Below, piece by piece: positions 7,676 to 18,926 of a stretch of DNA of 64,000 bases. Within the stretch, counting starts at the first letter, position 1. The number at the start of each line of letters is the position of its first letter. A model generated the notes under the pieces. It did not search any database. It was not told where the DNA came from and worked only from the letters and a program-made list of their open reading frames with translations. Both the position numbers and the translations under genes were made by a program. This stretch comes from Azospirillum lipoferum 4B (GTDB lineage: Bacteria > Pseudomonadota > Alphaproteobacteria > Azospirillales > Azospirillaceae), in NCBI RefSeq assembly GCF_000283655.1, contig NC_016622.1:2182501-2246500 (forward strand). Reading direction: 5' to 3'.

Positions 7676-9346
7676 ATGGGAAAGATTCTGGTTGTCGACG
7701 ACGAGAGGGACGTCGAGACGCTGATCATGCAGCGTTTCCGTCGCGCCGTCCGCGCCGGTGAACTGGAGTTCCTGTTCGCCCATGACGGGCAAGAGGCGCT
7801 GGAGACCCTGCGCGCCCGGCCCGACATCGACATGGTGCTGAGCGACATCAACATGCCGGGGATGGACGGGCTGACCCTCCTCGACCATCTGCCGCAGGTG
7901 AATGCCGACATCCGCGCGGTGATGGTCTCGGCCTATGGCGACCTCGGCAACGTGCGGGCGGCGATGAACCGCGGCGCCTTCGACTTCATCATCAAGCCCA
8001 TCGATTTCAGCGACCTGGAAGCCACCATCCACAAGACGCTGGAGGCCTGCCGTGCCGTGCGGCGGCTGCGCGATGCATTGCAGGAGACGCGGACGGCCGA
8101 AGCGGCGTCGCGCGCCCAGGCCGCCCGCCTGCGCCGGGTGCTGGACGGCAGCCCCATCGGCGTGTCGATCATCACCGAAACGGGCGAGCTGCTCTACTGC
8201 AACCAGCGCTGTGCCGACCTGTTCGGCGTGCCGGCGGAGGCGATGCACCAGCGCTGCGCCCCCACCCTGTTCCGCCATGTGCGGGAAAGGCTGCCGGACC
8301 GGGCGCCCGGAGCCGTGCCAGCGTCGGACGAAATCGACTATATGCGCGAAGACGGGCGGACGGTGTGGATGGCGATGTCCGTCGACCGCACCTCTTACGA
8401 GAACCAGCCGGTCTTCATCGTCTGGCTCTACGACATCACCGAGCGCAAGGTGCAGGCGGAAGCGCTGCGCAGTGCCAAGGATTCGGCCGAAAAGGCCCTG
8501 GCCGACCTGGAGCGCATGCAATCCGACCTGATCCGGGCGGAGAAGATGGCGGTGATCGCCCAGTTGATCGCCGCGGTCGCACACGAGATCAACACCCCCG
8601 TCGGCATCGCGCTGACCGCCGCCACCCATCTGCAGACGGCGTCGGAAGCGATCATCATGACCTTCAAGGGCGGCCAGCTGCGCAAGAGCGACTTCCAGGA
8701 CTATGTCGGCACCGCCAGCGAGGTTTCCACCCTGCTGGTCGCCAACATCGAACGCGCCGCCGCCCTGATCCAGAGCCTGAAGCTGGTGACGGAGGGCAAG
8801 GCCAGCTCGCCGCGCAGCCGCGTCGGCCTGCGCGACTACCTGTCCGATATCGTGCTGGCGGTGCAGGTGCAGCCGGCCGCGGCCGGGCACCAGCTGGCTC
8901 TGGACTGCCCGGACGGGCTGGCGCTGGACACCTATCCCGGCGCGCTGACCGAGGTGCTGCTGGCCCTGCTGACCAACGCCTTCGCCCATGCGTTCGAGCA
9001 GGTGCCGGCGATCACCGCCATCGGCGCGCATGCCGGGGACGGGACGCGGGAGGATGAGGCTGCCGTCCGCCGTCCCGGCGGCAAGGTGACGGTTTCGGTG
9101 CGGATGCTGGGGGAGGACCGGGTGGAGCTGCGCGTTTCCGACAACGGCCGCGGCATCCCGGCCGATATCCGGCCGCGGCTGTTCCAGCCCTTCACCACCA
9201 CCCGCCGCGGTGCCGGCAGCATGGGGCTGGGGCTCTACGCCGTGTTCAACCTGGTTACCGGAAAGCTCGGCGGCGAGATCGACATCGACAGCGAGGTCGG
9301 CCGTGGCACCAGCGCAATCCTGCGGTTGCCGCTGGACGCCCCCTGA
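7676..9346 (+). CDS. Receiver-PAS-histidine kinase
   Basis: A 556-residue protein that begins with a receiver domain (D8/D9, phospho-acceptor D57 in [12 protein letters not shown]). It continues with a coiled linker, a PAS domain (about 155-265, ending DITERK), a dimerisation domain with H303 ([14 protein letters not shown]), and a C-terminal ATPase domain ([29 protein letters not shown]). The receiver is at the N-terminus, so it probably takes phosphate from another kinase, perhaps the symporter kinase upstream, and modulates its own kinase domain. The ATG has AGGAAG about 6 bp upstream. No membrane segment is seen, so it is cytoplasmic. Confidence 0.92.
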
Positions 9347-9411
9347 CCCGGCCCCCGATCCTGCCGAATCGGCGGCAGAAGCCCTGCAGACGACATCTTC
9401 GGGACCCCTCC

Positions 9412-11136
9412 ATGGACGACAAGACCGATCTGCTGCGATCCCTGCCCCCGCTGTCGTCCTATTCCCCGGAGGAGTCGGTGGCGCACTCGCTGGACCGGGC
9501 GCGGCTCTACCATGACCAGCTGGTCGCGGCGATGCCGGGCCTGATCGTCCATCGCGAGGGTGCGATCCTCCATTGCAGCGGCACGCTGGCCCGCCTGCTG
9601 GGCTACCAGTCGGCCGAACAGGTGATGGCCCTGCCCGACGTCATGGCGCTGGTCCCTGAAGACGCCCGTCTGGCAGAGCGCAACGCCTATGCCCGTTGCC
9701 TGCAAGAAGGCCCGACCCAACCGCTGGCCCGCCGCATCAAGCGCCACCGCGCCGACACCAGCATCCAGTGGTTCGACCAACTGCTGGAGCCGGTGGACTG
9801 GGGCGGCGCGCCCGCCGTGATGGAGATGCTGACCCAGATGCGCCCGGAGGCCGCCAACGCCGAGGTGCCGCATCAGGGACAATTGCTGCAGGCGGCCATC
9901 GACGCCATGCCCAACGGCGTGCTGATGCTGGACCGCGACCTGCGGCTGGAAGGGGCCAACAGCGAATATTTCCGGCTGTGGGACTATCCCCCCGGCATGT
10001 TCCCGCCCGGCACCCCGGTGGCCGAGACGCTCTATTACAACCACCGGCGCGGCGATTACGGCGACGTCCCCTGCGAGGAGACGGTGGCGGAGCTGTGCAC
10101 CCGCTTCCTGGTCAAGGGCGTCATCAATTCCGAACGCCAGGTTCCGACGAACGGCCGCATCCTGGACATCCGCACCGCCCCGCGCGCCGATGGCGGATAC
10201 GTCATCACCCAACACGACATCACCGACCGCAAGCGCATCGAGGATGAATTGCGGGAGGCCAAGGAGCGGGCCGAAGCGATCCTGAAGGAGCTGCGCGAGA
10301 CCCAGCAGCAGCTGATCGTGCAGGAGAAGATGGCCTCGCTCGGCCAGCTCACCGCCGGCATCGCCCACGAGCTGAAGAACCCGCTGAACTTCGTCAACAA
10401 CTTCGCCGAGCTGTCGGGAGAGTTGCTGGACGAGATGCTGGCACTGCTGGAGCCGCTGAACGACCATCTGGACGACGCGACCCGCGGCGACGTGGACGAT
10501 CTGGTCGACAGTCTGCAAAGCAACCTGCGCAAGATCGCCGACCATGGCCGGCGCGCCGACAACATCGTCAAGAGCATGCTGGCCCATTCGCGCGGCGGCG
10601 GCGGCGAATGGCAGACCACCGACCTGAACGCTCTGGTGGAAGAGGCCCTGTCCCTGTCCTATCACGCCGTGCGCGCCCAGGACCGCAACTTCAACGCCAC
10701 GCTGGAGCGTCGATTCGCGGCGGATGTCGGCGAGGTGAAGCTGGTTCCGCAGGACATGTCGCGTGTCCTGGTCAATTTGTTCACGAACAGCTTTTACGCC
10801 GTCCGCAAGCGGCAGCTGACTTGCGGCAACCCGGATTATGAACCGACGTTGAGGATAACAACCGAAGCAAGAGGAAGTGAGGTTTCCATAAGAATTCACG
10901 ACAACGGCGTCGGCATGCCACCCGCCGTGGTCGACAAGCTTTTCACGCCTTTTTTCACGACGAAACCCACCGGCGAAGGAACAGGCTTAGGTCTTTCGCT
11001 CAGCTATGACATCGTGGTACATCAACACAGGGGCCGTTTCGATGTATCCAGCATCGAAAACGAGCATGCCGAGTTTGCGATCACGCTGCCACGAATCGTG
11101 ACAGCCATGTCGTTAGGGGAGCGCCGGAAGACATGA
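9412..11136 (+). CDS. PAS-PAS histidine kinase
   Basis: A 574-residue cytoplasmic kinase with two PAS-type sensor domains (about 30-130 and 155-275, the second ending DITDRKRIE) and a short coiled coil. The H-box has H319 ([19 protein letters not shown]), and the ATPase domain carries [18 protein letters not shown] and [12 protein letters not shown]. The [13 protein letters not shown] type of H-box is common in hybrid kinases that work with single-domain receivers. Its stop overlaps the start of the receiver gene at 11133 (ATGA), so the two are very likely a cognate pair. The last 300 bp are less GC-rich than the rest. Confidence 0.92.
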
Positions 11137-11528
11137 CCCTGGGAATCCTCGTCGTCGACGACGAACCGGATATCGAGGATCTGTTCCGTCAGCGCTTTCG
11201 CGCAGAATTGCGCCGTGGAGAACTGGCCCTGCACTTCGCCTCTTCTGCAGAAGAAGCACTCCAAAGCTTGAACACCGGCCTGCAACCGGAAGCTGTTCTT
11301 GTCCTGAGCGATATCAATATGCCCGGCATGAGCGGTCTCGACTTCCTGCAGCGCCTCCGCGCGGAAGCCCCGCAGGTGCCGGTCATCATGGTCACCGCCT
11401 ATGGCGACAGCGAAAACCGCCGCCGCGCGCTGGACATCGGCGCGACCGAGCTGGTGACCAAGCCCGTCGATTTCGTCGCCTTGAAGAAGCTGGTCCAGAA
11501 CGTCATCGTCCAGAAGACGGCGGCCTGA
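11133..11528 (+). CDS. Single-domain response regulator
   Basis: A 131-residue receiver domain with D9/D10, phospho-acceptor D60 ([14 protein letters not shown]), Thr in MVTAYGD and Lys in VTKPVDF. It resembles the receiver fused to the kinase at 7676 (shared QRFR.., SDINMPGM and KP.DF), so a duplication within this cluster is likely. The start overlaps the PAS kinase stop by 4 bp. It has no output domain. This closes the signalling block; the next genes run convergently on the minus strand. Confidence 0.93.
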   Translation: MTLGILVVDDEPDIEDLFRQRFRAELRRGELALHFASSAEEALQSLNTGLQPEAVLVLSDINMPGMSGLDFLQRLRAEAPQVPVIMVTAYGDSENRRRALDIGATELVTKPVDFVALKKLVQNVIVQKTAA

Positions 11529-11581
11529 GCGCGGGCTTTCGCCGGCCCCGGGTGGGACGGGGGCGGACGCCCCCGCACCGA

Positions 11582-12739
11582 TCACCCTGCACAGACCGCC
11601 GCGATGTCGATCAATTCCGGCCGCGCGCCCGCCGAGCAGGACGGACAGTCGGGATCGACCGGAACCGCGATCTCGTTGAACTCGCCGCGCAGACCGTCAT
11701 AGAGCAGCAGGCGGCCGGCCAGAGGTTCGCCAAGGCCGAGCAGCAGCTTGATCGTCTCGGCCGCCATGATGGTGCCGATCACGCCGGGCAGCACGCCCAG
11801 CACGCCGGCCTCGGCGCAGGACGGCGCGTATTCGGCCGGCGGCGGTTCCGGGAACAGGCAGCGATAGCAGGGCCGCAGCCCCGGTGCAGCGCCGCCGAAC
11901 ACCGACACCTGCCCCTCGAAGCGGAAGATCGCGCCATAGACGTTCGGCGCGCCCAGCCGCAGGCAGGCGTCGTTGACCAGATAGCGCGTCGGCAGATTGT
12001 CGGACCCGTCGACCACGACATCGTGGCCGGCCAGCAGGTCCAGCACATTGGCCGCTTCCAGCCTCGTGTCGTGCGACACCACCTCAATGGTCGGGTTGAG
12101 GTCGAGCAGGGCGGCCCGGCCGCTTTCCACCTTGCGCTGGCCGAGTCGGCTTTCGGCATGGAGGATCTGGCGCTGCAGGTTGCTGCGCTCGACCCGGTCG
12201 TCGTCGATCAGGGTCAGGCGCCCAACGCCTGCGGCGGCGAGGTAGAGCGCGATGGGCGAGCCCAGCCCGCCGGCACCGATCAGGGCGACGCGGCTGCGCA
12301 GCAGCCTGTGCTGCCCGGCCTCCCCCACCTCCGGCATGGTAAGGTGGCGGCGGTAGCGCTCGCGCTGGGCGGCGTCGAGCTGCGGCGGCACCTCCACCGG
12401 CAGACCCGCGGCCTTCCAGGCGGAGAAGCCGCCGGCGACCGAGCGAACATCGGCATAACCAAGCCGCAGCAGATCCTCCGCCGCGAACAGCGACCGGGTG
12501 CCGCCGGCGCACAGCAGCAGCAGGGGACGCGCCGGGTCGGGCGCCTTCTCCTCGATCCGCAGTTCCAGGAAACCGCGCGGCAGACGCAGCGCCCCGGCGG
12601 GGTTGCCGGTCGCCGTCTCCTCGTCCTCGCGGACATCGACCAGCAGGGCGCCCTCCCGCTGCAGGGCGAGCGCGTCGGCGGCAGTCACTTCCGCGATGCG
12701 GGCGCGCAGGTCGGCAAGGCGCCGGTCCTTCAGGCTCAT
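11582..12739 (-). CDS. Rhodanese-E1-like adenylyltransferase (MoeB/MoeZ/ThiF family)
   Basis: A 385-residue protein with a rhodanese domain at the N-terminus (about 17-115, active Cys77 in LLLCAGGTRS). It is followed by an E1-like adenylation domain: nucleotide loop GAGGLGSP about 153-160, then DDDRVERSNLQRQ, a VVDGSDN motif, and zinc CxxC pairs CYRC and CPSC. MoeZ-type enzymes adenylate the C-terminal Gly of a ubiquitin-fold carrier and convert it to a thiocarboxylate with rhodanese-bound sulfur. Rhodanese more often lies at the C-terminus, so the domain order is reversed. The gene lies 13 bp after the carrier gene and is the last gene of the YcaO/TfuA operon, so it most likely charges that carrier. 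Confidence 0.9.
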   Translation of the reverse strand: MSLKDRRLADLRARIAEVTAADALALQREGALLVDVREDEETATGNPAGALRLPRGFLELRIEEKAPDPARPLLLLCAGGTRSLFAAEDLLRLGYADVRSVAGGFSAWKAAGLPVEVPPQLDAAQRERYRRHLTMPEVGEAGQHRLLRSRVALIGAGGLGSPIALYLAAAGVGRLTLIDDDRVERSNLQRQILHAESRLGQRKVESGRAALLDLNPTIEVVSHDTRLEAANVLDLLAGHDVVVDGSDNLPTRYLVNDACLRLGAPNVYGAIFRFEGQVSVFGGAAPGLRPCYRCLFPEPPPAEYAPSCAEAGVLGVLPGVIGTIMAAETIKLLLGLGEPLAGRLLLYDGLRGEFNEIAVPVDPDCPSCSAGARPELIDIAAVCAG

Positions 12740-12752
12740 GGCGAATCGCTCC

Positions 12753-13037
12753 TCAACCGCCGGCCAGGGCGACCATCAGGGTCAGGGTGGCGCCGGCCGG
12801 CAAGGCCGCCTCCAGCCCGCCCAGCCGCCGAACGTCATCCCGGCCGAGATAGACGTTCACGAAGCGGCGCAGTTCGCCTTCGGCGGTAAACAGCCGGTCG
12901 CGGAAGGCATCCTGCCCGGCGGTCAGCGCCGACAGCGCCTCGCGCACCGTGGCGCCCGGCACCGTCACCTGATCGCGCCCGCCGACGAAGCCGCGCAACG
13001 GGGTCGGCACGCGGATGGTCACTTCTGCGGCTATCAC
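12753..13037 (-). CDS. Ubiquitin-fold sulfur carrier (CysO/ThiS/MoaD-like)
   Basis: A 94-residue protein ending in Ala-Gly-Gly, the hallmark of sulfur carriers thiocarboxylated at the C-terminus. Segments such as VPTPLRGFVGG, RRFVNVYLGRDDVRRLGG and TLMVALAGG resemble mycobacterial CysO more than classic MoaD. CysO is charged by a MoeZ-type enzyme, and such an enzyme follows 13 bp downstream. No Mec-type peptidase or cysM is nearby, so a cysteine-biosynthesis role is not supported. The ATG overlaps the tfuA stop (ATGA), so translation is coupled to tfuA. The inferred role is sulfur donor to the YcaO/TfuA reaction. Confidence 0.88.
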   Translation of the reverse strand: MIAAEVTIRVPTPLRGFVGGRDQVTVPGATVREALSALTAGQDAFRDRLFTAEGELRRFVNVYLGRDDVRRLGGLEAALPAGATLTLMVALAGG

Positions 13038-14458
13038 GTCTGCATCTCCTCTTCCGGCACGGGCTGTTCCGGCATGGACTCCTGCGGCACCGTTTGGGCC
13101 AGCGCCGCCTCCGCCTCCACCGCCAGCTGGCGGAACAGGTCGCGCACCTGCTTGGCCCGCATCAGGTCGATGCGCAGGTCCAGCAGGTCCTTGAAGCCAT
13201 ATTCATAGGACCAGACGTCGGCCGGCGCATCAACCCGGCAGGAGGTGCTGGCGACATGCTCGGCCAGCAGTTGCTCCACCGTTTCCTTGGGCTGGCGGCT
13301 GGCGTCGCCGAAATGCAGCTCCATCACCCGGTCGACCAGCGCCGCCTCCTCGGCGGTGGACTCGTAAAGCCCGCGCAGCCGCAGCTCGTTCAGCACCGGC
13401 TTGGTCGTGCGCGCCAGGAACCGGCGCGGGATCAGCCAGAGCCGCATCGCCCGCTCGATGGCCAGCTCGGTCATCAGCTCGCTGAACTCGGCATCGGTCA
13501 GGTCGTTGCGGCGGCACCAGTCGGCCAGCGCCTCCGCCCCATTCAGGCCGCGCATGGCGCAAAAACGCTGGGTTTCCGTCCGCACCGCCGCCTCATCCAC
13601 CGTGACGCCCATGACCTCGGCGAACTGGCGGATCAGCAGGCGGCCGAGTGCGGCGTTGTTGATCTCGGCGAAGTCCGGCCGGTGTAGGGCGGCGTGCGAC
13701 GCGATTTCCGACAGCGGCACGGTGTTGCCGCCATGGCAGACGCGGCGGTCGCGCTCATACAGCACGTCGAAGTAATGGGAGGCGTTGAAGTCGAAGGGCG
13801 CCGGCCGCGGCGGCGTGATCAGGCTGGCGAGATGGCCGAGCAGCGCCTCCGCATCGCGGCGCTTCTGGTCGATCGCACCGCTGTCCAGGAAGCGCTCCAG
13901 CCGGTCCGTCTCCTCCCGGCTCAGCCCGGCTTCGGCGAGGATGCGGTCGCGGGTGCGTTCGGTGAAATACAGCGCCTTCGCGGCGGCGATCACCCGGTCG
14001 TGCAGGCTCCGGTCCACCGCACCGGCGGCCAGCGCCGCAGCCATGCTGGCGCGCAAATTCACCAGCGGCTCCGACAGCGGAAACCAGCCGTCTTCCGGCC
14101 CGGCATGGGCCAGCGCCACCTCGTCGTCACCGGTCAGCCGGCCGTCGACATAGCCGCGCGCCACCTCGCCGACCGGCACCATGCCGAAGGGATGGCATTC
14201 GGCCGCCCGCAAGGCGCCCATGCTGGACGCACCGTAGACCGCCACGCCCTTGTGCAGGGCATAGAGGATTTCCTTGTGCCAGACCGACAGCGACTGACCG
14301 AACACCCCGTCGATCAGGGCGATCACGTCCGGCCGGTGGATGGTCATGGCGCTGATGATGTCGGCCTGCGCCGCCGGCGGCAGGAAGACCGCGCCCGGCA
14401 GGATGGCGCGGGCATCCTCCACCGGCATGGTGGGCCCCAGGAACACACAGATCTTCAT
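13034..14458 (-). CDS. TfuA-like protein, partner of YcaO
   Basis: A 474-residue protein. The N-terminal about 200 residues are the TfuA core: KICVFLGPTMP, IALIDGVFGQSLSVWHKEIL, GASSMGALRAAE. TfuA proteins (named from the trifolitoxin locus) work with YcaO in peptide-backbone thioamidation, probably in sulfur delivery. The remaining about 270 residues are a helical extension, rich in Arg/Glu, not found in short archaeal TfuA; its function is unknown. I chose ATG 14458 (MKICVFLG), which overlaps the ycaO stop by 4 bp; longer frames upstream would run into ycaO. The stop overlaps the carrier-gene start. It is cytoplasmic, with no signal or membrane segment. Confidence 0.88.
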   Translation of the reverse strand: MKICVFLGPTMPVEDARAILPGAVFLPPAAQADIISAMTIHRPDVIALIDGVFGQSLSVWHKEILYALHKGVAVYGASSMGALRAAECHPFGMVPVGEVARGYVDGRLTGDDEVALAHAGPEDGWFPLSEPLVNLRASMAAALAAGAVDRSLHDRVIAAAKALYFTERTRDRILAEAGLSREETDRLERFLDSGAIDQKRRDAEALLGHLASLITPPRPAPFDFNASHYFDVLYERDRRVCHGGNTVPLSEIASHAALHRPDFAEINNAALGRLLIRQFAEVMGVTVDEAAVRTETQRFCAMRGLNGAEALADWCRRNDLTDAEFSELMTELAIERAMRLWLIPRRFLARTTKPVLNELRLRGLYESTAEEAALVDRVMELHFGDASRQPKETVEQLLAEHVASTSCRVDAPADVWSYEYGFKDLLDLRIDLMRAKQVRDLFRQLAVEAEAALAQTVPQESMPEQPVPEEEMQT

Positions 14459-15771
14459 GCGACCGATCCCATTTGCGCCTGAGATGCATGCGCCTTCAGC
14501 GCCTCCGCGAAGGCCAGCGGACGCGCACCCGGAGTGTAGAAGTCGAACTGGTAGCCTTCCAGCCCCGGCACCAGCACCCGCACCACCGGAATGCCGATTT
14601 CCGGCAGGGTCAGGTCGAAGACGAGCGCCTGCTCGATCCCGGCGCGGTGCAGCACGGTCAGCAGAATGGCGACGTCGCCTTCGAAAGTCGGCGTGGCATG
14701 GTTCCGGTGACGTCGCCCGTCGGTGTTGATCGGCGTGGCTTCCAGCGCCGCGATCTCGGCGCTGCCGTCGGCATTCTGGTTGCGGACCAGATCGCGGCGG
14801 AAGAAGTCGTCGCGCGAACCGGCGATCAGGACCAGCCGCGACTGCACCGCCTCGGTCAGGGCGCGGCACATGGCGACCGCCGGCTCCAGATGGCTGCCAT
14901 AGCCGCGGTTCATGCCGGTCTTGCGCAGCTCGCGGTCATAGACGATGGCCATATAGCTCGGCACGCCCATATCTGTTGTGACATCGAACAGCAGCGGACG
15001 GATGCCGGCCAGCTCGAAACGATGCAGCAGGTCGCGGACGGACGGCGCGTCGATGCTGGCCAGATCGACCCGCGGCGTCGGCCAGTTCAGCCGGTCGCCG
15101 GCATAGCGCCAGCAGGCGACGGAATCGCGCTCGATCACCTCATAGAGGCCGGCGGCGACCGCCTCCAGGATGTGATTGCCGCTGGCCAGCCCGTTGGTGC
15201 CCATGGCGTAGAAGCTGCGGGCGCCGGGCTTGGTCCCCGGCGGCATGCTGTGCAGCCCGACCGAGGTCCAGGGTGCCGCGACCGGACGGCCGCTCATCAA
15301 ATCCCAGCCCCAGGTCCAGATTTCCGGCCGGTCGGGACGGAAGGAACCGTGCTTGGTCCCCGGCAGGCGGTCCAGCGGAATGCGTCCGTCGGCCGGCAGG
15401 TCGTTCCACGCCGCCTCGACATGGGGCAGGCGCAGATGCTCGGCATGGTGGAATTCGATCGCTTCCATCGCGGCGGAGACGGTCGCGGCGGCGAGGCTGA
15501 AACCCTTGCCGGCGCTGCCCGACAAGGTCGGACTGTTCGGCCGGTGTCCGATGACGGTGTGGATGCCCAGGCGGTCCAGCCCGGTCACGTCGGCCAGCCG
15601 CGTGATGCCGCACCGGGCGAAATGGGGCGAGATGCGGGCCAGCGTCTCTTCCGGCGTCGCCGTGCGGTGGGTACCGAGGAAGAAGCGCTTGGCGGCGCGG
15701 TGAACGGTGTCACCCAGGCGGATGCCGGGGAACTCCGGATGGACGGTGTCGGGCGATACGCTGTCAGCCAT
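14455..15771 (-). CDS. YcaO-family peptide-modifying enzyme
   Basis: A 438-residue YcaO domain protein. The ATP/Mg-binding elements are visible: AAMEAIEFHHAE, AAGLYEVIERDSV, and ALTEAVQSRLVLIAGSRDD. YcaO enzymes phosphorylate the peptide-backbone amide oxygen. They then form azolines from Cys/Ser/Thr or, with TfuA and a sulfur source, thioamides. The C-terminus (YTPGARPLAF..) lacks the PxPxP ending common in azoline-forming members, which is consistent with a TfuA-dependent type. It overlaps tfuA by 4 bp and starts 123 bp after the repeat precursor, with a stem-loop between. No strong Shine-Dalgarno precedes the ATG. Confidence 0.92.
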   Translation of the reverse strand: MADSVSPDTVHPEFPGIRLGDTVHRAAKRFFLGTHRTATPEETLARISPHFARCGITRLADVTGLDRLGIHTVIGHRPNSPTLSGSAGKGFSLAAATVSAAMEAIEFHHAEHLRLPHVEAAWNDLPADGRIPLDRLPGTKHGSFRPDRPEIWTWGWDLMSGRPVAAPWTSVGLHSMPPGTKPGARSFYAMGTNGLASGNHILEAVAAGLYEVIERDSVACWRYAGDRLNWPTPRVDLASIDAPSVRDLLHRFELAGIRPLLFDVTTDMGVPSYMAIVYDRELRKTGMNRGYGSHLEPAVAMCRALTEAVQSRLVLIAGSRDDFFRRDLVRNQNADGSAEIAALEATPINTDGRRHRNHATPTFEGDVAILLTVLHRAGIEQALVFDLTLPEIGIPVVRVLVPGLEGYQFDFYTPGARPLAFAEALKAHASQAQMGSVA

Positions 15772-15852
15772 GGGATGGGTCAGGACTCGCGGCTCCGGCC
15801 GGTTCGGGTGGAGATGGTTCGCGGCTCCGCAGAGCGCGGGAAGCCAAGGGAC

Positions 15853-15887
15853 GGGGCCGGCCGCCTCCCACAGGAAAGGCCGGCCCC
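15853..15887 (-). promoter_or_regulatory. Intercistronic stem-loop between precursor and ycaO
   Basis: A perfect 10-bp inverted repeat: GGGGCCGGCC at 15853-15862 and its complement at 15878-15887, with a 15-nt loop. It begins 8 bp past the precursor stop codon and has no U-tract. Such hairpins often act as partial terminators or 3' mRNA stabilisers, letting a peptide gene be expressed above its modifying enzymes. That role is inferred. Confidence 0.7.
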
Positions 15888-15894
15888 GATCCTA

Positions 15895-17265
15895 TCACGC
15901 CTCGGTCGTGGGATCCTCGCTCGCCGCCGGACCCTGCGACGCGGAAGCCGACGCCCCAGGAGTGGCCGCGGCCGAGGTCGCCGAAGCCGACTGCGCCGCA
16001 GCGGAGGTGGCCGACGCCGAGGTCGCCGACGCCGACATTGCCGACGCGGAGTGAGCGGACGCCGGAGCGGCGACAGCCGAGAAGGCCGGGGCCGGAACCG
16101 CGGACGCAGACTGCGCCGCTGCCGAGAAGGCAGACGCCGGAGCGGCAACAGCCGAGAAGGCCGGAGCCGGAACCGCGGACGCAGACTGCGCCGCTGCCGA
16201 GAAGGCCGACGCCGGAGCGGCGACGGCCGAGAAAGCCGGGGCCGGAACCGCGGACGCAGACTGCGCCGCTGCCGAGAAGGCGGACGCCGGGGCGGCGACG
16301 GCCGAGAAAGCCGGAGCCGGAACCGCGGACGCAGACTGCGCCGCTGCCGAGAAGGCGGACGCCGGGGCGGCGACGGCCGAGAAGGCCGGGGCCGGAACCG
16401 CGGACGCCGACTGCGCCGCTGCCGAGAAGGCGGATGCCGGAGCGGCCACCGCGGAGAAGGCCGGAGCCGGAACCGCGGACGCAGACTGTGCCGCAGCCGA
16501 GAAGGCGGATGCCGGAGCGGCGACGGCCGAGAAGGCCGGGGCCGGAACCGCGGACGCCGACTGTGCCGCAGCCGAGAAGGCGGATGCCGGAGCGGCGACG
16601 GCCGAGAAGGCCGGGGCCGGAACCGCGGACGCCGACTGCGCCGCTGCCGAGAAGGCGGATGCCGGAGCGGCGACGGCCGAGAAGGCCGGAGCCGGAACCG
16701 CGGACGCCGACATTGCCGACGCAGAGTGAGCGGACGCCGGGGCAGCAACGGCCGAGAAGGCCACCGGGGTCGGAACCGCAGAAGCGGACTGCGCCGCCGC
16801 GGAGGTCGCGGATGCCGATTGAGCGGAGGCGGAGAAGGCGGGCGCCGGAGCAGCGGAGGCCGACTGGGCCGAGGCCGAGAAACCGGACGCCGAAGTGGCC
16901 GAAGCGGAGGTTGCGGAAGCCGACGTGGCTGAAGCTGACGTCGCGGAGGCGGAGGTCGCGGACGCCGAAGTGGCCGAAGCGGAGGTGGCGGAAGCAGACG
17001 TGGCCGAGGCCGAGGTGGCCGAGGCGGAAGCGGCCGTCGCGATCGATTCGACCGCCACGTCGCTGTCCAGGCCGGTCTCTTTGCCGGTCAAGGAGTTGAA
17101 GGCGTCGGCGGCTGCGCTGCGGACATGGTCGGGAAGGACGCCGCCGAACCCGCTCTGCGCCAGCAGGGCCTGCTTTCCCGAAATGTCGAGGGCGTTCAGC
17201 TGATTACGGAATTCGCCGTCGGTGGCGAGGCGCTTAATGAGGGCGAGTGCCTGTTCCTTGGCCAT
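15895..17265 (-). CDS. Giant repetitive RiPP-type precursor with Nif11-like leader
   Basis: 456 residues. Residues 1-60 (MAKEQALALIKRLATDGEF.., LLAQSGFGGVLPDHVRSAA) have the length and pattern of Nif11-like leader peptides. After a short acidic spacer, residues 75-435 consist of pentapeptides [S/P]-A-x-A-x: SASAT nine times (80-124), a mixed stretch, then nine 25-residue units (176-400) of SAVAA-PASAF-SAAAQ-SASAV-PAPAF type, then more SASAT/SAAAQ. The frame of five breaks once, at PTPVAF (165-170). There is no Cys, Tyr or Trp anywhere, and no K, R, D or E from 74 to 449. The tail is PGASASASQGPAASEDPTTE. AGGAGG lies 9 bp before the ATG. It is first in an operon with YcaO, TfuA and a sulfur relay, so it is most likely their substrate. 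A structural silk-like protein is the alternative. Confidence 0.85.
   Translation of the reverse strand: MAKEQALALIKRLATDGEFRNQLNALDISGKQALLAQSGFGGVLPDHVRSAAADAFNSLTGKETGLDSDVAVESIATAASASATSASATSASATSASATSASATSASATSASATSASATSASATSASGFSASAQSASAAPAPAFSASAQSASATSAAAQSASAVPTPVAFSAVAAPASAHSASAMSASAVPAPAFSAVAAPASAFSAAAQSASAVPAPAFSAVAAPASAFSAAAQSASAVPAPAFSAVAAPASAFSAAAQSASAVPAPAFSAVAAPASAFSAAAQSASAVPAPAFSAVAAPASAFSAAAQSASAVPAPAFSAVAAPASAFSAAAQSASAVPAPAFSAVAAPASAFSAAAQSASAVPAPAFSAVAAPASAFSAAAQSASAVPAPAFSAVAAPASAHSASAMSASATSASATSAAAQSASATSAAATPGASASASQGPAASEDPTTEA
16066..16740 (-). repeat. Nine tandem 75-bp coding repeats
   Basis: Nine head-to-tail units of exactly 75 bp start at 16066, 16141, 16216, 16291, 16366, 16441, 16516, 16591 and 16666. 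Read on the minus strand each encodes 25 residues. The eight units at 16066-16665 encode the identical peptide PASAF-SAAAQ-SASAV-PAPAF-SAVAA, although their DNA differs at several third positions. The ninth (16666-16740) has PASAH-SASAM-SASAV instead, and PASAH-SASAM also caps the other end of the array. Confidence 0.97.
16894..17028 (-). repeat. Nine SASAT pentapeptide (15-bp) repeats
   Basis: Nine consecutive 15-bp units on the minus strand encode SASAT. Codon use differs between units (Thr as ACT, ACC or ACG; Ser as TCG, TCC or TCA), so the DNA has diverged while the peptide has not. This is the start of the repetitive core of the precursor gene. Confidence 0.95.
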
Positions 17266-17572
17266 TTACGGGCCCCTCCTGCAATCGGTCAGCCAATAGG
17301 ATTGCTGCGAATGGAATGCAACGGCTAAACCAATAGCATAGGCAATCCGCAAAAATTCTAGTGAAAACACACAAGAATCTATGCCTGACACCGAAATTTA
17401 ACGTCCGCTTCGGGCGGAGACCGGCCGTAAGCCTACAGGATGGCGCAGAATAGGCAGGGCTGCGCCCCGATCATGGCCCGCAATCGTCATCAGGTGCGAT
17501 GCGACCGCCTGAAACGCACACATATGAAGGGGGCGGGAATGATGCGGCCGCGACTCGGGACAACAATCGCTC
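17266..17572 (-). promoter_or_regulatory. Upstream region of the precursor operon
   Basis: 307 bp without a gene, between the acetyltransferase stop and the precursor start. Positions 17280-17400 are clearly AT-richer than the surroundings, as expected of a promoter. CCAATAG occurs twice in direct orientation (17293-17299 and 17330-17336, 37 bp apart), which may mark an operator. On the minus strand TTGCAT and TATTGG with 17 bp between them are a weak -35/-10 candidate. No riboswitch is apparent. Confidence 0.4.
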
Positions 17573-18127
17573 TCAACCGGTAAGCGCCGCTTCCCGCCGC
17601 CGCGCCCGCCATTCCACGCGCGTCTGGTGCCAGACATCCGCCTCGGGCGGGTTGACCGGCTCGGGCAGCAGAGTGGTTCCGCGCACCTCAGCGCCCAGCC
17701 GGCGCGCCACCGCCTGCGAGGCCGTGTTGCGGGGATGGATGGTATGGATGACCTCGGTCCAGCCGAGATGGTCGAACACCCAGTCGATGGCCGCGACAGC
17801 GCTCTCGACCGCATAGCCGCGACCCCAGCAGTCCCGCATGATCGCCCAGCCGACCTCAGGTCCCGGCCAGCCTTCCGGCACCCAAGGGCCGACTCTGCCG
17901 ACCCAGCGGCCGGTCTCCTTCTCGATGACGGAGAACATGGCGAAGCCCTGGATCGACCAGGCGCCGGCCATCGACAGGAATCCGCGCCAGGCGACCGGAC
18001 GGGACTGCAGGCCACCGATGAACTCGGTCGCCTCCGGATCGGCCATCATCGCCGCCCAGCCATCGAAATCCTCCGCCCGCGTCGGCCGCAGGATCAGACG
18101 AGCGGTTTCCAGAATCGGTTTATCCAT
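17573..18127 (-). CDS. GNAT-family N-acetyltransferase (RimJ/RimL-like)
   Basis: A 184-residue acetyltransferase of the kind annotated Acetyltransf_3. Visible elements are LETARLILRPTRAEDFDGWA at the N-terminus, the acetyl-CoA-binding stretch WGRGYAVESAVAAIDWVFDH, and the late IHPRNTASQAVARRLGAEVRG. Substrates range from ribosomal protein N-termini to antibiotics and cannot be told from sequence. I chose ATG 18127 (MDKPILETARL), which has AAGG upstream; in-frame ATGs at 18139 and 18205 would add 4 or 26 residues. It lies upstream of the precursor operon on the same strand but 307 bp away, so co-transcription is unlikely. Confidence 0.85.
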   Translation of the reverse strand: MDKPILETARLILRPTRAEDFDGWAAMMADPEATEFIGGLQSRPVAWRGFLSMAGAWSIQGFAMFSVIEKETGRWVGRVGPWVPEGWPGPEVGWAIMRDCWGRGYAVESAVAAIDWVFDHLGWTEVIHTIHPRNTASQAVARRLGAEVRGTTLLPEPVNPPEADVWHQTRVEWRARRREAALTG

Positions 18128-18476
18128 GGAGGCCTTCATCCCGCCGACTCGACCCTCAGCAAAAAGCGCAGCCATGCCGCGAACACCCTCTCGAAAATCG
18201 CCCACAAAAAAGATATGGGCAAATCATTAACAACCTAAACATGCCGCCGATAACAAATCCGTCAACGGTTACAAGAAATATCATTCACAAGCATCAAACC
18301 TGCGTCCAGAGCGAACTGTCGGCACCACCGTTGCGCAGCGGGACCTTGACCGAACACCCTAGGCATTCTGGGCTAGGGCGACGGCGCGCATCGGTTCCCA
18401 TATGATGGTGCGAAGCCCGGTCGCTTCTTTGTGCCCGGGCGGACAAAAAGAACAGAGACAAGTACGGAGCACAACG
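18128..18476. other. Divergent intergenic region
   Basis: 349 bp without a gene, between the acetyltransferase (minus) and the secreted protein (plus). Positions 18200-18300 are AT-rich, with runs such as ATTAACAACCTAAA, and probably hold divergent promoters. I see no defined operator or RNA. Confidence 0.5.
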
Positions 18477-18926
18477 ATGTTGCGGTTTCGGATGGCCATC
18501 CTGGCCCTGGCGGTGGTGAGCGGCGCGACCCTGGCCGTCGCCGGCTTCAGCGGCGGTGCCGCGGCCCAGTCCAAGCTGGATTCCTCGGGCCAGCCCGTTT
18601 GGGACGAAAGCCACAACCAGCGCCCGACCGCGGCCAGCGACCGCGCGCTGCCGGCCGGCGTGGTCACCCTGCGCACGGCGACCTCCGCCCCCGGCCTGCT
18701 CGGCGTCTACGCCCGCAACGGCCTGCCCTTCGACATCGTGCTGACCCGTGTCGACGCCAGCCAGTGCGTCAACATCCTGCCGGAGGATTGCGGCCTGCTG
18801 GGCACCGACGTGCGCGTTGCCAGCGGTACGGAGGTTCTGGTGCGCAGTGTACGTCAGGCCGACATGACCCGCACCTATGGCGTCACCCCGGTCTACAGCT
18901 GGCGCCCGGCCGTCGCCGCGAAGTAA
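18477..18926 (+). CDS. Small secreted protein of unknown function
   Basis: A 149-residue protein with a clear signal peptide (MLRFRMAILALAVVSGATLA, cleavage probably after GAAAQ). The mature part is about 115 residues with two Cys (SQCVN and PEDCG) that could form a disulfide in the periplasm. No known domain is recognised. The ATG at 18477 has GGAG upstream; an earlier in-frame start would disrupt the signal peptide. It is followed by a strong terminator, so it is a single-gene unit. Confidence 0.8.
   Translation: MLRFRMAILALAVVSGATLAVAGFSGGAAAQSKLDSSGQPVWDESHNQRPTAASDRALPAGVVTLRTATSAPGLLGVYARNGLPFDIVLTRVDASQCVNILPEDCGLLGTDVRVASGTEVLVRSVRQADMTRTYGVTPVYSWRPAVAAK

Follow-up and report, generated by a model that had tools for sequence, protein, structure and literature searches.

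A leader-bearing repeat protein beside YcaO, TfuA and a sulfur-carrier relay in Azospirillum: a probable thioamidating peptide-modification operon

Five genes on the minus strand of a 64,000-nucleotide stretch of Azospirillum lipoferum 4B (contig NC_016622.1, positions 2,182,501 to 2,246,500; hereafter the window) encode a long repeat protein with a Nif11-like leader, a YcaO protein, a TfuA protein, a CysO/ThiS-like sulfur carrier and a rhodanese-E1 enzyme. From what is known of these families the block probably specifies a thioamidating system of the RiPP (ribosomally synthesized and post-translationally modified peptide) type, most likely a known chemistry applied to an unusual substrate. 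What is new is that the leader and the enzymes are conserved while the repeats behind the leader have been swapped among about nine unrelated families with nearly uncharged cores. The sequence-level evidence consists of the gene set, the conserved motifs, the Gly-Gly end of the carrier, the conservation of the leader, the turnover of the repeats and the selection acting on them. The literature searched, from which most subscription journals were missing, contained no account of YcaO-TfuA chemistry acting on giant and nearly uncharged repeat substrates, and it yielded no paper joining TfuA with Azospirillum.

The five same-strand genes had been proposed in a preliminary description, and all were confirmed as placed, with family matches for the four enzyme and carrier proteins. 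The precursor gene (15895-17265; 456 aa, no Cys) is separated by 123 bp from ycaO (14455-15771; 438 aa), which is followed by tfuA (13034-14458; 474 aa), the carrier gene (12753-13037; 94 aa) and the rhodanese-E1 gene (11582-12739; 385 aa). The tight spacing described earlier was borne out by measurement, with two 4-bp overlaps (YcaO/TfuA and TfuA/ThiS) and a 13-bp gap (ThiS-E1), and the lack of a protease or transporter gene holds among the five. Relatives were taken from an order sample of 82 genomes, comprising a genus sample of 45 (Azospirillum by named loci) and 37 others, and from a class sample of 385 genomes. Loci from 19 of the 24 genomes with the operon were examined in detail first, and two more (L073 and L074) were added later.

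Leader and repeats of the precursor

The leader occupies the first 62 residues of the precursor (17080-17265, minus strand) and is 61-98% identical to those of 13 relatives, which together with the window make up a set of 14 leaders. Its earlier designation as a Nif11 leader stands as a resemblance: PF07862 and TIGR03798 are each matched by ten of the 14 at E<=0.01, whereas the 62-aa fragment of the window scores 22.4 bits with PF07862 (cut-off 23.8) and 18.6 bits with TIGR03798 (cut-off 32.3), and the GG cleavage motif expected at the leader end is not conserved among the aligned leaders. Directly after the leader, ESIAxAA is found in all 13 precursors compared (the window and 12 relatives, the frame-broken L034 being left out), and partial ones show variants of it, for example ESVAFAA. 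An IniB-type N-terminal domain was rejected as background: NF038175 is matched by five of the 14 leaders, but the matches viewed span only 21-23 residues, and 19 of the 45 genus genomes match it at E<=0.1, none above the cut-off and many without the operon. A second leader gene is present in 14 of the 24 operon genomes; in 13 it shares the contig of the first and lies upstream of it, and in G066 it is on another contig. Most of those read encode repeats (for example SAPAMASAGF or SSAAAFGQPA), the one of L033 lacks them, and charged residues occur in some. The window holds one leader gene only, and a plasmid search with the leader gave no match.

Behind the leader the window precursor consists of A/S/P-rich repeats, built as 25-aa units with a five-residue register, and a short charged tail. 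Eight consecutive units are identical at the protein level. Units picked by protein similarity lower dN, so the count for the window was redone on units defined by their position. Over the 36 pairs among units 3-11, 257 DNA differences were counted, 217 of them at third codon positions; including units 1-2, whose register is off or whose sequence has diverged, lowers this share to 49%. The window repeats are thus maintained at the protein level. The ratio of nonsynonymous to synonymous change (dN/dS) among a precursor's own units, here selected by protein similarity, runs from 0 to 0.26 in 11 of the 13 precursors.

About nine unrelated repeat families stand behind the conserved leader and enzymes, and species groups share no unit. 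They are SAVAAPASAFSAAAQSASAVPAPAF; AGFAAAGAPSPAASAAGT with its relative AGHAAAGAPAPAFAGAGM; AMPATANPAAALPA; a 44-aa type with SLQAHPAAVASLSSLFAVPATAQ; GTIAAGQIAG, in the frame-broken L034; MFGAPAASAS with SMSMLAGTAAPAASA; GAIWSGAPAASPAA; AGIFAGQPA; and ATPATAMPAS, a tally that follows our own grouping and in which three families rest on partial or broken frames. The repeats of A. doebereinerae are of AMPATANPA type. Full-length precursors span 174-505 aa. With three close relatives of the window set aside, the remaining ten of the 13 were counted without the last 25 residues of each: only 2 of 2,812 core residues are charged, and Pro is followed by Ala or Ser in 306 of 321 cases; the last 25 residues hold 3-7 charged residues in 12 of the 13. 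Ser makes up 25% of the window core. The precursor had been described as free of Cys, which is true of the window and not general, with four Cys in L033 and six in L032.

A GC-rich RNA hairpin lies right after the precursor stop codon (15852-15888, minus strand; z -4.04). Such a stem-loop was recognised by eye in nine of 13 loci examined, the weaker and less regular stem of L039 being excluded from the count; folded alone, eight of the nine reach z <=-3 and the remaining one -1.7. Because it has no run of T the precursor hairpin was not scored as a terminator. It may keep expression of the enzymes below that of the precursor. Searches of the window gave no promoter (0.3 expected) and four terminator-like sites (3.3 expected), and an Rfam scan of 11000-18500 gave no match.

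The modifying enzymes and the sulfur carrier

The YcaO domain of the amide-activating enzyme is matched at E 1.7e-75 (Pfam), and its sequence motifs, in patterns chosen by us, are well kept in a check of 20 proteins: N..ASGN in 20, RA[LM]TEA.Q in 19, E[VIL]IERD in 18 and MEAIE in 16. The best NCBIfam model is TIGR03266 (McrA thioamidation), which is reached below its cut-off (205.9 vs 365 bits), and in a search of the Protein Data Bank (PDB) residues 30-411, nearly the whole length, align to MJ1094 (1e-24).

The TfuA match (Pfam, E 5.1e-41) is confined to residues 50-169, and the best NCBIfam model, NF033432, is again below its cut-off (193.2 vs 235.2 bits). The first 215 residues match M. acetivorans TfuA (6xp8; 4.5e-39, Foldseek 3.2e-10). 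The remainder forms a C-terminal extension (13037-13834, minus strand) that is conserved among orthologues and can be aligned, at 14-24% identity, with the long TfuA proteins of other alphaproteobacteria. TIGR04500, a PpiC-related peptide maturation model, gives partial matches at E<=0.1 in eight of ten extensions scanned (best E 4.6e-6) and in four of 14 TfuA orthologues (best E 0.0014), its cut-off not being reached by the extension (best 26.1 vs 180 bits). The SurA model matched one extension (0.0094), and no Pfam match was consistent across the set scanned. A fold model of the extension was of low confidence (pLDDT 65.5, pTM 0.42), and the sole PDB match at E<=0.001 was TfuA itself, with the N-terminal part. 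These low sequence scores hint weakly at a SurA/PpiC relationship, from which a peptide-binding role may be supposed.

The carrier is recognised by the Pfam ThiS model (E 3.6e-5; 24.7 bits vs cut-off 22.5), and its nearest PDB structures are 4n6e and 3dwg, which we take to be a thiosugar-pathway protein and M. tuberculosis CysO, respectively. The Gly-Gly terminus is kept in 20 of 20 carriers, the window included. The rhodanese-E1 protein, a MoeB/MoeZ of PRK08762 type that is likely to charge the carrier, contains ThiF (8.2e-78) and rhodanese (2.7e-12) Pfam domains, and both the rhodanese-loop motif CX4R[ST] and the E1-cysteine motif SCxEAGV are present in 18 of 18 proteins, again with the window included.

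Taken together, the YcaO, TfuA, carrier and E1 matches lend support to the earlier proposal of a gene set for backbone thioamidation fed by a carrier-based sulfur relay. The relay is not itself new, because for YcaO-TfuA systems it has been printed as usual outside sulfide-rich habitats, where a thioamide-forming YcaO tends to use a thiocarboxylated ThiS homologue with TfuA as hydrolase (Rice et al. 2026, PMC13063428). The operon of the window holds the pieces of this published route together with an E1/rhodanese that could charge the carrier.

Occurrence and inheritance

The full-length long TfuA was found in 24 of the 45 genus genomes and in none of the 37 others of the order sample. Among the 82 the leader gene is confined to the identical 24 genomes, and the carrier gene occurs in all 24, with one further weak match in G033; it adjoins tfuA in the window and in 19 of 19 loci examined. 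The rhodanese-E1 gene was seen in 22 of the 24 operon genomes (one cut by a contig end) and in none of the 21 other genus genomes. The rhodanese-E1 is missing from two of the 24. The precursor had also been expected beside the enzymes: the leader gene is present in 24 of 24 operon genomes and is seen adjoining ycaO in 15 (13 among the first 19 loci, plus L073 and L074). In the other nine its surroundings are interrupted by a nearby contig end or stretch of N, as would be expected if the assemblies broke within the repeats. In the class sample five TfuA matches outside the genus were obtained at E<=1e-60, none of them full-length and none covering more than query positions 1-331 of 467. Two short peptide patterns from the TfuA extension, run against the genome contigs of 84,980 species, matched 17 loci, all 17 from Azospirillum; the patterns are strict enough for distant kin to escape.

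In a glyS tree of 46 rows, 23 operon rows including that of the window form one supported clade. G004 branches at the base of this clade, less firmly supported, and G002 falls elsewhere in the tree. The operon block is mostly inherited together.

Proposed pathway, rival readings and neighbouring features

In the thioamidating system that we favour, the rhodanese domain would accept sulfur as a persulfide and the E1 domain would adenylate the Gly-Gly end of the carrier, which would turn into a thiocarboxylate. TfuA would free this sulfur for YcaO, which with ATP would activate backbone amides in the repeats, so that oxygen would give way to sulfur at many equivalent positions, with +15.98 Da for each. 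Docking would be through the conserved leader, perhaps recognised by the TfuA C-terminal domain, and the repeats would be many copies of a short core. The chemistry is inferred from family knowledge; leader docking on the C-terminal domain, the choice of modified positions and what becomes of the product are likewise inferred parts of the scheme. The most likely fate would be trimming of the chain by host peptidases, with short protease-resistant thioamidated peptides persisting, as proposed for thiovarsolins, whose combination of a repeat precursor with the lack of a protease gene makes them the best precedent and the model for the fate given here.

The thiovarsolin cluster of Streptomyces varsoviensis resembles the operon in its YcaO and TfuA, tandem-repeat precursor, absence of a specific protease and Pro-containing core (APR/GPR), and N-acetylated tripeptides, in which the thioamide sits between Pro and Arg, remain after presumed host proteolysis; it differs in having <=5 repeats and other tailoring enzymes, and its accessible account describes neither a Nif11-like leader nor a giant array nor a carrier/E1 pair (PMC6511847). 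Another Streptomyces YcaO-TfuA cluster is the subject of a preprint (PMC13174530). Thioamitides such as thiostreptamide S4 share the iterative thioamidation dependent on YcaO and TfuA, but have a short core, a macrocycle and many tailoring enzymes (PMC8153245). Among 2,326 TfuA-type clusters surveyed by Malit et al. (2021, PMC8120280), Nif11-like precursors stand beside YcaO-TfuA, and MoeB and ThiS appear in figure legends; those clusters differ by a conserved GG motif and, in one case, transporters, and the words Azospirillum and repeat are absent from the main text. In the methanogen McrA thioglycine module ycaO and tfuA are both required and sulfur-metabolism genes lie close by, whereas the substrate is an enzyme with a single site (Nayak et al. 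2017, PMC5589413). Closest in taxonomy is Azospirillum sp. B510, where Haft et al. (2010, PMC2887384) placed a chromosomal cyclodehydratase, AZL_022680, three ORFs (open reading frames) from a docking protein, AZL_022710; the spacing fits ycaO and E1 of the window operon, and this thiazole/oxazole-type pair is probably part of the same locus. Their reading was of the TOMM (thiazole/oxazole-modified microcin) type, and the peptides aligned there lie near plasmid genes.

A number of observations weigh against the thioamidating system. The leader fragment misses both Nif11 cut-offs and has no conserved GG, the whole 456-aa precursor matches no family (Pfam; NCBIfam up to E 10), and the precursors far exceed the usual length for RiPPs. 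The dN/dS values of L032 (0.55) and L033 (0.34) are higher than the rest, and all such values come from a choice of units that depresses dN. In L034 (genome G037) the main precursor loses its frame, with GTIAAGQ-type repeats running into an Arg-rich stretch, probably through a real or a sequencing shift. The top PDB match of YcaO by E-value is TruD (4.1e-26, residues 182-406, the C-terminal half), which we take to be an azoline-forming enzyme, and the SagD model is matched as well. G002 and G004 have the operon without the rhodanese-E1. A neighbouring histidine-kinase gene is distributed identically (24 of 45 genomes), and on the glyS tree two label changes suffice. Because of this kinase distribution and the glyS tree, co-occurrence alone cannot show that the parts work together, and it was set aside as functional proof.

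The alternative that deserves most attention keeps the same chemistry and lets the product stay a long, intact protein, a low-complexity polymer that bears thioamides, is nearly uncharged and acts in structure, condensate formation or metal binding, which we regard as possible though clearly the less probable outcome. It would account for the near absence of charge in cores that end in a charged tail, for five genes with neither protease nor transporter, and for a composition preserved while the sequence is replaced; yet the repeats match no family, hypervariable cores behind a constant leader have been described for released peptides (PMC2887384), and the nearest repeat-core thioamide precedent is cut to tripeptides (PMC6511847). 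Such a polymer might tentatively carry dozens of backbone thioamides per chain and be possibly an intact material or metal-binding protein, for which leader-guided YcaO-TfuA would select composition rather than sequence. Equally tentatively, its limits might be near absence of charge, richness in small residues, mostly a Pro content and a periodic hydrophobic residue, with sequence free to change wholesale between species.

It is unlikely that YcaO-TfuA acts on another cellular protein, with the repeat gene as a mere neighbour whose product stays unmodified. Large proteins are among the substrates of YcaO-type enzymes (McrA, PMC5589413; uL16, PMC13063428), and the linkage could reflect inheritance, as the kinase distribution and the glyS tree allow, but the leader gene accompanies the operon in all 24 genomes, G002 and G004 with their operon away from glyS included. 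Very improbable is an assignment of the carrier and E1 to molybdopterin, Cys or thiamin synthesis with a merely coincidental location: although E1 exceeds the MoeB equivalog cut-off (584 vs 449 bits), all 45 genus genomes have a separate E1-domain protein, 47-55% identical to that of the operon and presumably MoeB, and the carrier gene keeps its place beside tfuA throughout the loci examined, overlapping it by 4 bp in the window. We give least credence of all to oxazoline formation by YcaO on Ser/Thr with an E1-like docking protein. The published TOMM reading of what is probably the same locus (PMC2887384), the Ser-rich window core and the TruD match speak for it; the presence of TfuA and a carrier, and an E1 that is a complete rhodanese-MoeB-type enzyme, speak against it. 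The common A. soli unit AGIFAGQPA contains no Ser, Thr or Cys and could not be used by ring-forming YcaO chemistry, which makes ring formation less likely even though other units of the A. soli core contain Ser and Thr and units of other species hold Ser or Thr.

If the favoured thioamidating system is correct, a full sulfur supply chain would be tied to a probably tolerant thioamidating enzyme with natural multi-site substrates in about nine unrelated repeat designs. This diversity would be a ready-made test of YcaO-TfuA recognition, and the system might open a way to peptides or polymers rich in thioamides and point to an unknown Azospirillum trait.

Beside the operon, two-component genes occupy 7676-11528 of the window, among them a PAS histidine kinase (9412-11136, plus strand), whose distribution equals that of the operon, and a response regulator identified by family match (11133-11528, plus strand). 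In G002 and G004, where the operon lies away from glyS, the kinase and response-regulator genes still adjoin it, so that they are candidate regulators and may control the operon; in G035 the kinase is on a different contig. A GNAT acetyltransferase gene upstream (17573-18205, minus strand; putative N-acetylation) was rejected as a fixed member, being present in 23 of 45 genomes, three of them without the operon, and absent from four of the 24 with it. Opposite ycaO and the precursor gene runs an antisense open frame of 819 aa (14473-16932, plus strand), which is probably artefactual, a product of the high GC content and the repeats.

Most genus genomes have an additional short TfuA match (~43-52% identity), in L020 beside a YcaO. 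The YcaO-TfuA loci L070-L072 and L115-L119 were rejected as the same system, with no match at E<=0.01 to the leader, carrier or E1 of the window. For the Paracoccus loci the comparison used the annotation of L184 and L185, L183 carrying none. In three of these alphaproteobacterial loci (L119:8719-9594, L116:9380-9982 and L072:10428-10982) proteins with C-terminal tandem repeats of about six residues (RAVMAS, DLVGRS, RxDxQx) lie beside YcaO-TfuA, accompanied by a protein with an AHExxH-like stretch, and may represent another type of repeat-core substrate. In L070, L071 and L118 ycaO is immediately preceded by small ORFs (74-111 aa), those of L070 and L118 both having ACYLIDL-type endings, which look like candidate precursors of another family.

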